64,000 nucleotides of DNA from Sulfurirhabdus autotrophica (GTDB taxonomy: Bacteria > Pseudomonadota > Gammaproteobacteria > Burkholderiales > SMCO01): assembly GCF_004346685.1 (NCBI RefSeq), contig NZ_SMCO01000007.1:62001-126000 (forward strand), written 5' to 3'. This document shows, in pieces, positions 20,533-39,706 of this stretch. The notes under the pieces were generated by a model. That model did not search any database. It worked only from the letters and a program-made list of their open reading frames with translations, and was not told where the DNA came from. Both the position numbers and the translations under genes were made by a program. Each line of letters opens with the position of its first letter. The first letter of the stretch is position 1.

Positions 20533-20916
20533 AAAATATAATTTTTTCTTTTTTTTATCAAAATTGTTGCATGCTCGCAACGCATTGGTAATAAATATCT
20601 ATTTAGTTACCATCTCTATACCCCTTTTAAAAAGCCATTCTTTTTTCATTAAGTATCGAATCGATACTTAATGAAAATTTTCTTGAAATTAAATGCAATA
20701 AAAGTGCATTAACTTGTTGTGTTTTATTAATAATCTGGAATAGAATTGCCTCACCAAGCGAAGGTGGGAGCCCGTCTTTGTGATTAACTGGTACTTAAGA
20801 TGATGTGCAATACCGGGAAATGGATTCACGTTGTCGCTTGAAGTGCAGATGAAAATCTCTCTGTGATGTTAGAGGCAACAACATAAACCGGCTTAACTTT
20901 TTTATAGGAGTAGATC
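20533..20916. other. intergenic region between lysA and the H1-like gene
   Basis: 384 bases without a gene. It is strongly AT-rich and contains a perfect 35-base palindrome (20643-20677, listed separately). A small hairpin (CACC/GGTG) with GC-rich surroundings lies near 20752-20785, probably in the leader of the H1-like transcript. No open frame with a plausible start was seen, and no clear sigma-70 promoter could be fixed. Confidence 0.6.
20643..20677. repeat. 17-bp perfect inverted repeat around one central base
   Basis: The arms TTTTCATTAAGTATCGA and its exact complement are separated by a single A at 20660. It lies 110 bases after lysA and 240 bases before the H1-like gene. A large stem with poly-A/poly-T ends could act as a bidirectional terminator of lysA. 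Alternatively, with no loop, it could be a protein-binding site. An 11-base part of it (20658-20668) recurs at 26749-26759. Confidence 0.6.
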
Positions 20917-21471
20917 ATGGCAACACCAGAAAAAAGCAAGACTGCAGCTACCGCTAAGAAACCGGCAGCTAAAACAACCACAGCAAAAGTAGCAGCAGTA
21001 AAAAAACCTGCAGCTAAAGCAGCAGCCAAGCCAGTGGCAAAAGCCGCAGCAAAACCTGTAGCTAAAAAAGTAGCGGCAAAAAAACCTGCAGCTAAAGCAG
21101 CAGCCAAGCCAGCGGCAAAAGCAGCAGCAAAACCTGTAGCTAAAAAAGTAGCGGCAAAAAAACCTGCAGCTAAAGCAGCAGCCAAGCCAGCGGCAAAAGC
21201 AGCAGCAAAACCTGTAGCTAAAAAAGTAGCGGCAAAAAAACCTGCAGCTAAAGCAGCAGCCAAGCCAGCGGCAAAAGCAGCAGCAAAACCTGCAGCAAAA
21301 AAAGTAGCGGCAAAAAAACCTGCAGCTAAAGCAGCAGCCAAGCCAGCGGCAAAAGCAGCAGCAAAACCTGCAGCTAAGCCAGCAGCTAAAAAAGTAACGG
21401 CAAAAAAACCTGCAGCAAAAAAACCAGCGGCCAAAAAAGCACCAGCAGTGAAGCCTGCTACCACAGCTTAA
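20917..21471 (+). CDS. histone H1-like Ala/Lys/Pro-repeat DNA-binding protein
   Basis: 184 residues, almost wholly Ala, Lys, Pro and Val in KPAAK/AAAKP repeats, like the C-terminal tail of histone H1 and the AlgP/BpH1-type bacterial proteins. Such proteins bind DNA nonspecifically and affect nucleoid structure or transcription. From residue 31 the protein is built of 26-residue units encoded by 78-bp DNA repeats. There is no folded domain or signal peptide. A ribosome site AGGAG lies 8 bases upstream. A long opposite-strand frame (20826-21464) is a by-product of the repeat composition. Confidence 0.9.
   Translation: MATPEKSKTAATAKKPAAKTTTAKVAAVKKPAAKAAAKPVAKAAAKPVAKKVAAKKPAAKAAAKPAAKAAAKPVAKKVAAKKPAAKAAAKPAAKAAAKPVAKKVAAKKPAAKAAAKPAAKAAAKPAAKKVAAKKPAAKAAAKPAAKAAAKPAAKPAAKKVTAKKPAAKKPAAKKAPAVKPATTA
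21007..21408 (+). repeat. five tandem 78-bp repeats inside the H1-like gene
   Basis: The sequence CCTGCAGCTAAAGCAG recurs at exact 78-base spacing from 21007, 21085, 21163, 21241 and 21319. The last unit carries an in-frame 12-base addition. Units differ by only a few bases, so expansion is recent or homogenised, and copy number is likely to vary between strains without breaking the frame. Confidence 0.9.
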
Positions 21472-27764: not shown

Positions 27765-28694
27765 ATGTCCAATGGTGAATTCGTCATTGATGTACACGGC
27801 CTGAGTAAAAGTTTTGATGGCAAGCTGGCTGTGAATCAGCTCAGTCTGCAGGTAAATAAGGGAGAGATTTACGGTTTTCTCGGCCCGAATGGCAGTGGCA
27901 AAACCACCTCTATACGCATGTTGTGCGGCTTGCTGACGCCAGATAGCGGCAGCGGTACCTGCCTGGGGTTTGATGTGATTTTGGAAACCGCTGAAATCAA
28001 ACGTCAGGTCGGTTACATGACACAGCGATTCAGCTTGTACGAAGACCTGACCATCCAGGAAAATCTGGATTTTACTGCACGTGTTTACGGTATGAAAAAC
28101 CGCCGTGAAGTGGTCGAGAACAGTCTCGAACGCCTCGGCCTCACCCAACGTCAAAAGCAACTGGCCGGAACCCTTTCTGGTGGGTGGAAGCAACGCTTGG
28201 CATTGGCCGCCTGCATGTTGCATGAACCGCGTCTATTGTTACTGGATGAGCCCACCGCAGGGGTGGACCCAAAAGCGCGGCGTGATTTCTGGGATGAGAT
28301 TCACAAACTGGCAGCTGATGGGATTACCGTTCTGGTGAGTACGCATTACATGGATGAGGCAGAGCGTTGCCACCGTCTTGCGTACTTGGCTAACGGTAGT
28401 TTACTGACACATGGCACAGCGACAGAAGTGGTGGCGAAATCAGGGATTATTACCTGGTCAGTTGAAGGGGATGAATTGATCCATCTGGCGGAACAATTGC
28501 GCGGATTGCCAGGTATCAAACAAATTGTGCCATTTGGCAATACACTCCACGTAAGTGGCATTGATGCCGAACTATTGCATCGGAGTATTTCCGTATTTCA
28601 GGAAGATGAACGCTATCATTGGGTCCGTGCCAAACCTGGACTGGAAGATGTCTTTATTCAAATGATGGATCAGTCGCAGGATGTTTTTTCATGA
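27765..28694 (+). CDS. ABC-2 type exporter, ATP-binding protein
   Basis: 309 residues. Walker A is GPNGSGKTT (near 42), the signature is LSGGWKQRLALA, Walker B is LLLLDEPTAGVDP and the H-loop is VSTHYMDEAERC. The motif set matches YbhF-like and drug-exporting ABC-2 ATPases; E. coli YbhF has two such domains fused, this protein only one. Its stop overlaps the permease start by 4 bases, so both subunits are made together. Confidence 0.93.
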   Translation: MSNGEFVIDVHGLSKSFDGKLAVNQLSLQVNKGEIYGFLGPNGSGKTTSIRMLCGLLTPDSGSGTCLGFDVILETAEIKRQVGYMTQRFSLYEDLTIQENLDFTARVYGMKNRREVVENSLERLGLTQRQKQLAGTLSGGWKQRLALAACMLHEPRLLLLDEPTAGVDPKARRDFWDEIHKLAADGITVLVSTHYMDEAERCHRLAYLANGSLLTHGTATEVVAKSGIITWSVEGDELIHLAEQLRGLPGIKQIVPFGNTLHVSGIDAELLHRSISVFQEDERYHWVRAKPGLEDVFIQMMDQSQDVFS

Positions 28695-29830
28695 GAGGCG
28701 ATCGTTTTTCCTGGTCAAGATTTTCAGCGATTGTGGTGAAAGAATTCATCCAGATGCGACGGGATCGGCTCACTTTCGCCATGATGGTCGGTATTCCCAT
28801 GATGCAGTTGATCCTGTTTGGATTCGCCATTAATTCAGACCCCAAGCATTTACCCACTGCGGTATTGTCGGCAGACCATAGCCCATTTTCCCGTTCATTT
28901 ATCCGCGCATTGGAAAATAGCCAATATTTTGTCGTAGAAAAACAGGCCACCAGTGAAGCAGAAGCAGACCGAATGCTCGCGGTAGGTGATGTGCAATTTG
29001 TCATCAATATTCCTGAAAATTTCTCTCGAAAACTGCAGAGGGGTGAACGTCCAAGCATTCTGGTTGAAGCCGACGCGACCGACCCTTCGGCAACAGGTAA
29101 TGCAATTAGTGCTATTAATAATCTGGCGCAGACGGCAATCAATCGTGATTTGCAAGGGGTTTTGCAAACACAACAACCCAAGCCTGCTGCTTTTGATGTA
29201 AATATTCACCGGCGCTATAACCCAGAAGGTATCACCCAGTACAATATTGTGCCGGGCCTGATGGGGGTGATACTAACCATGACCATGATCATGATGACCG
29301 GGCTTGCCATGACCCGTGAACGGGAACGCGGTACCATGGAAAATCTGCTCGCCACACCGGTAAAACCGTTTGAAGTCATGGCAGGCAAAATCATGCCGTA
29401 CATACTGGTTGGCTATATACAGGTGACGCTGATCATGCTCGCTGCACGCTTGATATTCAATGTGCCGATGCTGGGTAGTATTCCCATGTTGTACCTGGTA
29501 ATCCTCGCCTTTATTGCGGCAAACCTTTCGGTGGGCATCATGTTTTCTACCATCGCCAAAAATCAGATGCAGGCCATGCAAATGACTTTTTTCTTCTTTC
29601 TCCCCTCGTTGTTGCTGTCAGGCTTCATGTTCCCCTTTCGCGGAATGCCGCCTTGGGCACAAACCATTGGAGAAATATTACCCCTGACACATTTCTTGAG
29701 GATGGTGCGTGGCATCTTGCTGAAAGGAAATGGCGTGATGGATACGCTGCCGCATTTATGGCCCATTGGTTTGTTTATTTTATTTGTGGTGGGTATTGGT
29801 TTAAAGCGGTATAGGAAAACACTGGATTAG
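28691..29830 (+). CDS. ABC-2 type exporter, permease (YbhS/YbhR-like)
   Basis: 379 residues. A cytoplasmic start MRGDRFSWSRFSAIVVKEFIQMRRDR is followed by TM1, a large extracytoplasmic loop (about 50-180) and five further hydrophobic segments, with MTGLAMTRERERGTMENLLATPV as the coupling region. This is the classical ABC-2/DrrB-like layout. I set the start at the ATGA overlap with the ATPase gene rather than the longer frame from 28619, which would run inside that gene. With the adaptor and ATPase it completes a likely drug or toxic-compound exporter. Confidence 0.92.
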   Translation: MRGDRFSWSRFSAIVVKEFIQMRRDRLTFAMMVGIPMMQLILFGFAINSDPKHLPTAVLSADHSPFSRSFIRALENSQYFVVEKQATSEAEADRMLAVGDVQFVINIPENFSRKLQRGERPSILVEADATDPSATGNAISAINNLAQTAINRDLQGVLQTQQPKPAAFDVNIHRRYNPEGITQYNIVPGLMGVILTMTMIMMTGLAMTRERERGTMENLLATPVKPFEVMAGKIMPYILVGYIQVTLIMLAARLIFNVPMLGSIPMLYLVILAFIAANLSVGIMFSTIAKNQMQAMQMTFFFFLPSLLLSGFMFPFRGMPPWAQTIGEILPLTHFLRMVRGILLKGNGVMDTLPHLWPIGLFILFVVGIGLKRYRKTLD

Positions 29831-30028
29831 TCCGTTTTTATTATTCACATCAAGCAGTTATCTGGATGAACTTTCCGTCTGTTAAGCATGATTTTTAAAA
29901 CCTGCTACGCTTGAATTTCCTTCAGAAAAAACTGATCTAAACATCTAGTGGTTACCATTTTACGGTTTAATCTGAAGCGTAATTTTTCAGAAAAACGCGT
30001 AACGTTTATTAACTAAAGAGGATAAATC

Positions 30029-31051
30029 ATGAAACTGAACAGACTACTTTTTGCATCACTGCTTGCGATATTTTGTATGGGATTTATTGTTGAATCAGCT
30101 TCCGCAGCAGATGAGGGAAAGTCCCCTCAGAAAATGCCAGCAGTTCAAAAATTCGAACCGATCCCTGCTAACAAGGATGATGACATACGGGTGTTCTATC
30201 CTGATGGAAAAGAAGTTAAAGGGGTGCAAGCTCTTGAATTGATGCAGGCTGGTAAACCGGGCTTAACCATCTGGCTTGCAGGGAATCAATTCTTTGCCAT
30301 GGAAGATGTAATCCATGCCTTTCAGAAAAACAACAAGGAAGTGGTAGGGGTCATTACCATGCCTCCTGGCAAGGTAATGAACGCCATTCTGAATGGGGGG
30401 TGGTCCTACATGAACAAAGACTATGCGATGACCCCTGATGTATTCGGGATGGTGGACATGGGCTCGGTAAAGAAACTTAAGGAAGCAGGTAAAGGCAAAG
30501 ACTATGTGACCTACATGCACAACCAGCTGGTGCTAATGGTCGCGGATGGTAATCCAAAAAAAATCAAGGGCATTGCCGATCTTGGTCGACCTGAGCTTAA
30601 AGTGATGCTGCCAAATCCGATCATGGAAGGCATCATGAAATTCTATGCCAAAAAAGTTCTGGAACATAATGCTCTCTGGGACAAATTATCAGCCGGAAAA
30701 AATTGTCAGTCATGCTATGGCGCACCCAACGTTTACTTTACATCTGTTCATCATCGGGAAATCTCTGATGGCATCAAGGCCGGAAAAGTGGATGTGGGCA
30801 TCGTGTGGGCAACGGAATATAAGAATGCCCTCAAAGAAGGCCAGAAAGTAGGGGTAGTAAACCTGCCTGAGAAGGATAGCATGAAGAATGAGGTCAACTA
30901 TATTGCCGGTAACATCCCCGGCACAGCCCATGAAAAAAACGCAGTGGCGTATCTGAAATTCCTGGGAACCAAGGCTGGACAGACCGCATACTCAGACCAT
31001 GGCTTTATCGAAGCAACTGAAGAAGAGTTGAAGGTTCATGCTATTCCGTAA
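30029..31051 (+). CDS. orphan periplasmic substrate-binding protein (ModA/family 1-like)
   Basis: 340 residues. A signal peptide (1-26, ending ASA) is followed by a type II periplasmic-binding fold. The region LTIWLAGNQFFAMEDVIHAFQ resembles the first lobe of ModA-like proteins, and KVDVGIVWATEYKNAL resembles the second-lobe strand. A CxxC pair occurs in KNCQSCYGAPN, unusual for molybdate-binding proteins. No ABC permease or ATPase is adjacent on this strand, so it is an orphan. It could serve a distant transporter, a sensor, or bind a redox-active ligand. A strong ribosome site AAGAGGA precedes the ATG. Confidence 0.75.
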   Translation: MKLNRLLFASLLAIFCMGFIVESASAADEGKSPQKMPAVQKFEPIPANKDDDIRVFYPDGKEVKGVQALELMQAGKPGLTIWLAGNQFFAMEDVIHAFQKNNKEVVGVITMPPGKVMNAILNGGWSYMNKDYAMTPDVFGMVDMGSVKKLKEAGKGKDYVTYMHNQLVLMVADGNPKKIKGIADLGRPELKVMLPNPIMEGIMKFYAKKVLEHNALWDKLSAGKNCQSCYGAPNVYFTSVHHREISDGIKAGKVDVGIVWATEYKNALKEGQKVGVVNLPEKDSMKNEVNYIAGNIPGTAHEKNAVAYLKFLGTKAGQTAYSDHGFIEATEEELKVHAIP

Positions 31052-31153
31052 ATGGTTGTACCTTTGAAACAGGACTGCGATGACAGGCTTGGGTTAAAGC
31101 TGTTTCAGTATTGTATAAACGGCAGATCATATTGACTCAATCCTCTCGCAGTA

Positions 31154-31216
31154 ACTGTTTGGAAAGACTTGAAAGGCTCGGTTTATACACTGAGCTTTTC
31201 AAAATATTTGAACAGT
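31154..31216. repeat. long imperfect hairpin after the binding-protein gene
   Basis: Outer arms ACTGTT (31154-31159) and AACAGT (31211-31216) enclose an inner 11-bp stem (TTGAAAGGCTC with GAGCTTTTCAA, one G-U pair). It begins 102 bases after the stop. It may be a terminator or mRNA-stabilising structure; there is no clean T-run. Confidence 0.45.
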
Positions 31217-38063: not shown

Positions 38064-38099
38064 CTCTTAAGGCTTTTACTCTAAATAGCCTTAAGAGTT
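38062..38099. terminator. bidirectional terminator between lipase-like gene and msrQ
   Basis: Perfect 12-bp arms AACTCTTAAGGC and GCCTTAAGAGTT with a 14-base loop. The structure spans the stop codons of two convergent genes. Confidence 0.7.
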
Positions 38100-38738
38100 C
38101 TGTTGAGAAGGCTTCAGCATAGGTTTGCTGTGCGAGCTGGATAAATTTGCACTTTTGGTTTTTCTTAACCATACCAAGGCACGATACCCAAGTAAAACCG
38201 ACAAAACGATCGCATAAATCACTGGTTGTGTGATGTCTTTTTTAACCAGCCACCAGTAATGGATGACACCAAAGGTAGCAATGATATATACCAATCGGTG
38301 AAGCTGTTGCCAGCGTTTTCCACCCAGCCGTTTGACCATTTTATTGGTTGAGGTGACTGCCAGGGGTATAAGCAGCAGAAATGCAGCAAATCCGACCGTG
38401 ATAAAAGGCCGTTTAATAATATCTTTGTAAATCGTTTGCGGGTCAAAAAACTGATCCAGCCAGATATACGTGGTGAAATGCAGGCACACATAGAAAAACG
38501 CATACAAACCCAGCATGCGACGTAGCTTGATAAGCCACGACCAACCCGTCAATTTTCGCAAGGGGGTGACACCCAGCGTGATCATTAAAAACACCAGAGT
38601 CCATGTGCCAGTAGACCGGGTGATGAGCTCAATGGGATTGGCGCCGAGTTGACTGGTATAGCCGAACCACCCAAGCCGTGCGAGAGGGATGAGACAGGCA
38701 AGAAAGACCAGGGCTTTTAATGCAGGAAAAAATTTCAT
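38091..38738 (-). CDS. msrQ: MsrQ, haem-b membrane subunit of periplasmic methionine sulfoxide reductase
   Basis: 215 residues with six hydrophobic segments of the ferric-reductase-like type. MsrQ takes electrons from the quinone pool or flavin reductase and passes them to MsrP. Likely haem ligands are His in FFYVCLHFTTYIW and in the QQLHRLVYIIATFGVIHYWW block. The motif TGTWTLVFLMITLGVTPLRK is typical. Its start overlaps the msrP stop by one base. Confidence 0.93.
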   Translation of the reverse strand: MKFFPALKALVFLACLIPLARLGWFGYTSQLGANPIELITRSTGTWTLVFLMITLGVTPLRKLTGWSWLIKLRRMLGLYAFFYVCLHFTTYIWLDQFFDPQTIYKDIIKRPFITVGFAAFLLLIPLAVTSTNKMVKRLGGKRWQQLHRLVYIIATFGVIHYWWLVKKDITQPVIYAIVLSVLLGYRALVWLRKTKSANLSSSHSKPMLKPSQQNS

Positions 38739-39706
38739 CAGAAATACTTTTTCAAATCTAGACCAGCGTACATACGGGCGACTTGGTCTCCATATCCGTT
38801 ATACATCAAGGTTTCACGTTTAAAAAACTCGCCGATACGACGTTCTTTTGCCTGACTCCAACGGGGATGGTCTACATTCGGGTTTACGTTGGCAAAGAAA
38901 CCGTATTCTCTTGGGTTGGCTTTCATCCACGAAGAATTGGTTGGTTTTGAAACAAAGCGGATCTTCACGATGGATTTAGCGCTTTTGAAGCCATATTTCC
39001 AGGGCACAACCAGCCGAACAGGCGCGCCGTTCTGGTTGGGCAATACCTCACCGTATAGGCCTACAGCCATTAAGGTCAGGGGATTCATTGCTTCATCAAT
39101 GCGCAGGCCTTCTACATAAGGCCAGTCCAGCACACCGGAGCGCTGCCCGGGAAACTGCTTGGGGTCGTGCAGCGTGGTGAATTCAACAAATTTTGCGTTA
39201 CCTGTGGGTTCTACCTGTTTGATCAATTCGCTGAGTGAGAAGCCTACCCAGGGAATAACCATAGACCATCCCTCTACGCAGCGGAGTCGATAGATGCGCT
39301 CTTCAAGGGGGACGAGCTTGAGCAGATCTTCTATATCGTATACTTTAGGACGTTTGACTTCGCCTTCTACCGCAACGGTCCATGGACGGGTATTCAGCGT
39401 GCCGGCCATTTGTGCAGGCGAAGATTTGTCGGTATCAAACTCGTAAAAATTGTTGTAGCTGGTGACGTCTTTGTAGGGTGTTAATGGATCGGTCACACTG
39501 AATGAACTTTTTTGAAGGCCGCTTAATTTAGCTGCAGTTGCGGCTTCCACTTCTTGGGAATGGGACAGTAAACCAGGTAAAGCAATACCTGCTGCCACTG
39601 CAGCAATAGACTTTGTGGCTGCACCCATAAAATCACGTCGAGATTGGTAAATGCGTTTGTCCGTTATTTCGGAAGGTTTAATGTCGCTAGGTTGCTTGAT
39701 GAGCAT
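38738..39706 (-). CDS. msrP: MsrP, periplasmic molybdoenzyme methionine sulfoxide reductase
   Basis: 322 residues. A Tat signal (SRRDFMGAA near 22-30) directs export of the folded protein. The sulfite-oxidase-type fold binds molybdopterin, with Cys143 in [14 protein letters not shown] as the molybdenum ligand. MsrP repairs oxidised methionines in envelope proteins, and works with the membrane protein MsrQ encoded next. A GGAG ribosome site lies upstream of the ATG. Confidence 0.95.

Follow-up and report, generated by a model that had tools for sequence, protein, structure and literature searches.

The CxxC binding-protein gene and its locus

The window (the whole 64,000-nucleotide stretch of the Sulfurirhabdus autotrophica genome that we analyzed) carries on its forward strand, at 30029..31051, a gene that stands alone and encodes an orphan periplasmic binding protein of 340 amino acids with a CxxC pair. 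The assignment rests on an open reading frame with an ATG start, a match to the SBP_bac_11 family, and an alignment of 16 relatives. A ribosome-binding site, AAAGAGGA, was read from the sequence at 30015..30022 (+), 6 bases 5' of the ATG, and residues 1 to 26 (30029..30106, +) constitute a putative signal peptide, judged by eye, that lacks a lipobox and ends ...ESASA/A in the manner typical of export. The first-pass annotation described both the ribosome site and the leader as strong, and we agree with it on each. The window protein is predicted to be soluble and periplasmic, with an export-type leader.

Neither modB and modC nor any other uptake ABC gene was found beside the gene among the open reading frames and domains of the window. 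An ABC-2 type exporter set, however, occupies 27765-29830 on the strand of the binding-protein gene and ends 199 bp upstream of it, so the earlier statement that no transporter genes are adjacent holds for uptake systems and fails for transporters in general. An operon with this exporter set was considered and rejected, as the arrangement is absent, by eye, beside the genes of the named relatives. A phage origin was likewise dismissed, since 50,697 phage records gave no match.

The gene downstream is convergent, and the gap between the two holds the long hairpin that had been reported from the sequence. This hairpin is real: its arms (31169-31185/31186-31202; feature 31169..31202, +, by folding) begin ~118 bases past the stop codon, and it folds at −18.9 kcal/mol (z −4.3), with 0/200 shuffles as good. 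It has no T-run. We found no match to it among Rfam families and no further copy in the genome, which rules out a repeat or a known RNA. Strong hairpins at varying positions also occur 3' of other CxxC genes (24 loci tabulated, counting the duplicate L115), where they were scored by minimum energies, without shuffles. The hairpin is probably an ordinary 3' end.

Elsewhere in the window, a highly repetitive Ala/Phe/Gly-rich open reading frame at 20826-21464 (−) is, by eye, probably an antisense reading of a lysine/alanine-repeat gene, and a gene pair at 38091-39706 (−) resembles by eye the MsrPQ methionine sulfoxide reductase system.

Fold and distance from molybdate- and sulfate-binding proteins

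The window protein matches SBP_bac_11 (PF13531) over nearly the whole profile (positions 1-226 of 227) at 128.6 bits, against a gathering cut-off of 25 (E 4e-37). It scores far lower against the profiles of characterized binding proteins: 32.1 bits for ModA (TIGR01256; curated cut-off, 62.5) and 39.1 bits for Sbp/CysP (TIGR00971; curated cut-off, 155.5). An AlphaFold2 model built from 13 sequences (pLDDT 80, pTM 0.76; residues 1-38 below a pLDDT of 50) matched ModA, sulfate-binding, and tungstate-binding structures in Foldseek (best E 2.3e-13). VIA gave Z scores of 17-21 for ModA and Sbp entries, among them 4kd5 (Z 21.0, rmsd 2.7, 222 aligned). By sequence profile, the nearest solved structures are sulfate-binding proteins (1sbp, E 8.5e-10). 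Structure prediction, one of the checks proposed at the outset, has thus upheld the substrate-binding fold. These matches of a predicted model establish the fold of the window protein, not its ligand; the label "ModA-like" is sound as a description of fold and misleading as a statement of identity.

Four conserved features punctuate the C-terminal half of the protein, all on the forward strand. The E200 codon (30626..30628), within an NPxxEGI motif, sits in the alignment at the SSGG turn of 1sbp. The CQSC pair (30704..30715), with the codons for C226 and C229 at 30704-30706 and 30713-30715, supplies the only two cysteines of the mature protein. A phmmer alignment places an HHRE motif at residues 241 to 244 (30749..30760) on the A173-R174 loop of 1sbp, and WATE, with W260 and E263 (30806..30817), on the W192 region. 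In 1sbp, A173-R174 and W192 have a part in sulfate binding. The HHRE loop is poorly modelled, with pLDDT below 50 at residues 242-251.

A CxxC clade and its sister group

The 16 aligned relatives are 39-76% identical to the window protein, and the named ones (12 loci) belong to Sulfuriferula, Gallionella, Sulfuritalea, and related MAGs. Genome searches extended the family to 79 distinct open reading frames: 25 in a near group, A; 27 in A', from other orders of the same class; 22 in a sister group, B; 4 distant sequences (two "B2" and two ModA-like); and 1 gene piece. The piece is the N-terminal part of a broken CxxC gene, L053, which forms one row labelled B, hence our count of 22 rather than 23 for that group; its C-terminal part is counted among the 52 CxxC sequences.

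The CxxC pair defines a clade. It is present in 52/52 A and A' sequences and in 0/22 B sequences, and A and A' together form a single clade with a FastTree support of 0.999. The larger clade of A, A', and B has a support of 0.955, and two further B2 sequences fall inside it. From residue 50 onward, exactly two cysteines occur in 50/52 CxxC sequences, while 18/23 rows labelled B (the L053 piece included) have none. Members of the CxxC clade come from several orders within one bacterial class.

The remaining motifs are common property of both branches. E200, W260, and E263 are found in all 74 sequences of A, A', and B that extend over these positions, and HHR is found in all A, A', and B sequences except L016 and L017. 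The window protein has E200, HHR, W260, and E263, as does group B, and in addition the CxxC insert that the whole CxxC clade carries before the HHR motif, with HH lying 12 residues after CxxC. Because E200, HHR, and W260 are shared, and given the alignment to 1sbp, a single pocket type seems common to the CxxC groups and B, with CxxC gained in one of them.

Several members of the clade merit a remark of their own. L121 (G090:C157) has two CxxC binding-protein genes in tandem. In L124 (G225:C1:1854045-1855051) the CxxC gene is broken across two frames, which reflects either decay of this copy or an error in sequencing. One genus (L016/L119 and L017/L123) has neither soxB nor DsrE-domain proteins and has kept a diverged CxxC member, whose neighbors resemble by eye c-type cytochromes; L017 lacks HH.

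Transporters beside CxxC genes

We compared 85 wide loci (24 A, 31 A', and 30 B), in which L002 and L115 have identical sequence, leaving 54 distinct CxxC loci. Any ABC ATPase within 7 kb was found in 8/54 of them, several being exporter-type by eye. These transporter calls rest on ATPases and on reading of the gene lists, since a permease profile built from two sequences and a motif missed the ModB of L118. The orphan status assigned to the window gene by the first-pass annotation is therefore upheld, both by the want of an uptake transporter beside it and by the scarcity of ABC ATPases across the clade.

The lone complete modABC lies at L118, 1.6 kb from the CxxC gene, and it has a ModA of its own. 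That ModA is cysteine-free in the mature part and reaches 259 bits against TIGR01256, compared with 31.6 bits for the neighboring CxxC protein; we found no complete modABC operon with the same cysteines. Together with the clade-defining distribution of the pair, this supports the view that the CxxC is foreign to molybdate-binding proteins. At L118:5299-10490 the modABC genes and the CxxC gene stand in a row with two genes that by eye are of Rieske type and globin type, which makes the locus a natural side-by-side control of ModA against the CxxC protein. At L010, an ABC set with its own binding protein lies, by eye, 1.6 kb downstream of the CxxC gene.

The CxxC clade is linked to sulfur oxidation

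A test for distant genes that co-occur with the family, another of the checks proposed at the outset, showed an association with soxB. In a class-wide sample of 369 genomes, 32 had a CxxC member (>190 bits), and soxB was present in 31 of these against 120 of the 337 others (Fisher p 3e-12, overstated because the genomes are related); the others include two genomes with partial matches, G444 (127.5 bits) and G439 (97.9 bits), and the one exception is G304, with a CxxC member and no soxB. In a sample of 250 genomes from the order, the counts were 9/11 against 112/239 (p 0.03, again overstated by relatedness). The two exceptions, G008 and G056, come from one genus, and no DsrE-domain protein was matched in either. 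No association with dsrA appeared in the order sample (3/11 against 47/239, p 0.46), which gives no sign of a link to reverse dissimilatory sulfite reductase. The genomic link of the family is with sulfur oxidation, not with molybdenum, a connection that the earlier reading had overlooked.

The genome of the window has soxB, dsrA, and 11 DsrE-domain matches, and no match to the thiosulfate dehydrogenase family NF052225. No sulfur-oxidation gene is a direct neighbor of the binding-protein gene in the window, and neither a thiosulfate dehydrogenase nor doxD was seen beside it by eye. The neighbors of CxxC genes are mostly unconserved among relatives. Nevertheless, a DsrE-like gene with one conserved cysteine lies within 3 kb in at least 7 of 46 CxxC loci from 42 genomes, in five genera, against 0.45 expected, an enrichment that is partly circular and inflated because the profile was built from recurring neighbors of CxxC genes, and at weak E-values that profile also took in certain other proteins. 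At L011, soxY, soxZ, and soxB (all above their cut-offs) and two DsrE-like genes lie within 4.2 kb of the CxxC gene.

The DsrE-like profile also matched the tail of proteins of ~230-260 amino acids that resemble anti-sigma factors by eye (L152, L153, L154, L007, L009, and L117, with G000:C17:7326-7730 also listed among them). Some of their genes adjoin ECF-type sigma factors and DsrE-like genes; Pfam gave no match in the three scanned (L152, L153, and L007). Possibly these proteins are a sulfur-sensing anti-sigma family.

Sister group B and the thiosulfate operons

The genes of group B sit in a more explicit sulfur context. NF052225 was found in 7/250 genomes, and in 7/7 of these it lies directly upstream of a group B binding protein on the same strand; put differently, it is present in 7/17 sister-group genomes and in 0/233 others (p 2e-9). 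Plasmid-borne group B genes stand beside NF052225 proteins (L076 and L077) or DoxD (L073), and their further neighbors include DsrE, DsbC/DsbD, TlpA, and putative sulfite/sulfate exporters. SoxA-like cytochromes, with scores below the SoxA cut-off, occur near group B genes. Group B is the counterpart of the "sbp" in tsd-sbp-doxDA operons described in the literature, and the matching arrangement in A. ferrooxidans is reported to be induced on sulfur (PMC2754497). We found no function stated for this "sbp" in the open-licence PMC literature searched, which included PMC2754497, PMC2621215, PMC6335251, PMC11582611, and PMC12285272.

A proposed role in periplasmic sulfur oxidation

From its genomic associations we regard the CxxC protein as a likely candidate helper of periplasmic sulfur oxidation. 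Our preferred reading, to which we assign a probability of about 0.5, is that it binds a sulfur oxyanion in the periplasm in the service of sulfur oxidation, independently of any transporter, and that the CxxC would act as a redox or sulfane-sulfur site. The protein would belong to the periplasmic branch of the pathway and need no ABC transporter. Its ligand, most likely thiosulfate or an allied anion that bears sulfane sulfur, would be enclosed by the two-lobed fold and held through the NPxxEG turn, W260, and the HHR loop. The CxxC pair, apparently added in this branch 12 residues before the HHR loop, would most likely serve as a thiol/disulfide site, either taking up sulfane sulfur from the bound compound or sensing its redox state. 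We infer such a redox-active or sulfane-sulfur-carrying site because the pair is invariant, is the sole thiol pair, and occurs in proteins encoded near DsrE-like ones. Sulfur or electrons might then pass to the single-cysteine DsrE-like periplasmic proteins or to the Sox machinery.

A bolder extension, which we hold only tentatively and think improbable as it stands, makes the CxxC clade an unrecognized periplasmic sulfur carrier, whose cleft would capture thiosulfate while the CxxC takes its sulfane sulfur and shuttles it from Sox-type thiosulfate oxidation to later steps. A 2024 article states that sulfane sulfur reaches the cytoplasm "by unknown means" and proposes SoxT transporters for the membrane step (PMC11582611).

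Several other explanations compete with the preferred reading. The protein could simply chaperone or buffer thiosulfate or sulfate in the periplasm, its CxxC being a structural disulfide only. Because group B keeps its place beside thiosulfate dehydrogenase and DoxD without any CxxC, binding alone may suffice, and a CxxC in the oxidizing periplasm is likely oxidized. A structural disulfide, however, should be lost now and then, and the pair is retained in 52/52 sequences, even in L017 with its missing HH; we consider this alternative unlikely. We are similarly doubtful of a sensory role, in which the protein would bind a sulfur compound and report to a membrane sensor or anti-sigma factor rather than take part in catalysis. 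In at least four A' loci (L130, L131, L138, and L147; domains scanned in L130, L138, and L147), the gene has upstream of it, on the same strand, one for a kinase or LuxR-type regulator fused to a PhnD-type periplasmic domain, an architecture that resembles the tetrathionate/thiosulfate sensors TtrS/ThsS, and ECF sigma/anti-sigma pairs with a tail matching the DsrE-like profile lie near L007, L009, L117, and L152-L154. Against this, the PhnD-domain regulators already possess a binding domain in the periplasm, and the regulator arrangement occurs in few of the loci listed and is absent from the window.

The two remaining explanations fare considerably worse. The suggestion that the protein binds or stores a metal draws on a ligand set that is plausible on paper, CxxC followed 12 residues later by HH, but the two elements are inherited independently (L017 has CxxC without HH, and group B has HH without CxxC) and the genomic links are with sulfur genes. 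Because CxxC and HHR vary independently, we reject an obligate Cys2-His2 site. The metal role that the first-pass annotation had entertained is not supported; metal binding or storage through CxxC and HH strikes us as very unlikely. Least probable of all is an ordinary ModA whose operon has been lost and which relies on a ModBC encoded elsewhere. The fold is that of ModA and there is a weak TIGR01256 match; the score, however, is barely half the curated cut-off, the family is linked to soxB, and the genuine ModA of L118, encoded near a CxxC member, is without the pair. Score, motif, and context (an ABC ATPase within 7 kb at 8/54 CxxC loci) together rule out molybdate uptake.

Transporter-less binding proteins recur in thiosulfate operons, and the reading that we prefer, a transporter-independent binder with a reactive CxxC, would put right a label, molybdate-binding protein, that is easily misapplied. 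With a single pair of cysteines as the obvious residues to mutate, the CxxC clade offers a tractable protein, and such mutants bear on how sulfane sulfur is handled in the periplasm, or how the redox state of sulfur compounds is.

Comparison with known systems

The presence of group B binding proteins in tsd/doxDA operons is already in print; the CxxC clade and its link to soxB we did not find described in the open-licence PMC literature. The closest known counterpart is the "sbp" of the tsd-sbp-doxDA cluster, represented by AFE_0043 and AFE_0049 of Acidithiobacillus ferrooxidans and by a counterpart on plasmid pGOX1 of Gluconobacter oxydans. Like the window protein, it is a transporter-less substrate-binding protein in a sulfur-oxidation setting; unlike the window protein, it has no CxxC and lies inside a sulfur operon. 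Our sequence comparison used the G. oxydans protein (L073), which is 26.5% identical over 93% of the window protein, groups with B, and shares the HHRQ motif of that group.

ModA and Sbp/CysP share the two-lobed fold and weak profile matches with the window protein, which differs from them in falling below their curated cut-offs, in having no modBC or cysTWA operon, and in carrying the CxxC insert along with the HHR and NPxxEG motifs. The sulfur carriers SoxY, DsrE, and TusA offer an analogy for the proposed use of cysteine in handling sulfane sulfur. Their folds are unrelated to that of the window protein, and they employ one terminal or loop cysteine where the window protein has two, arranged as CxxC.
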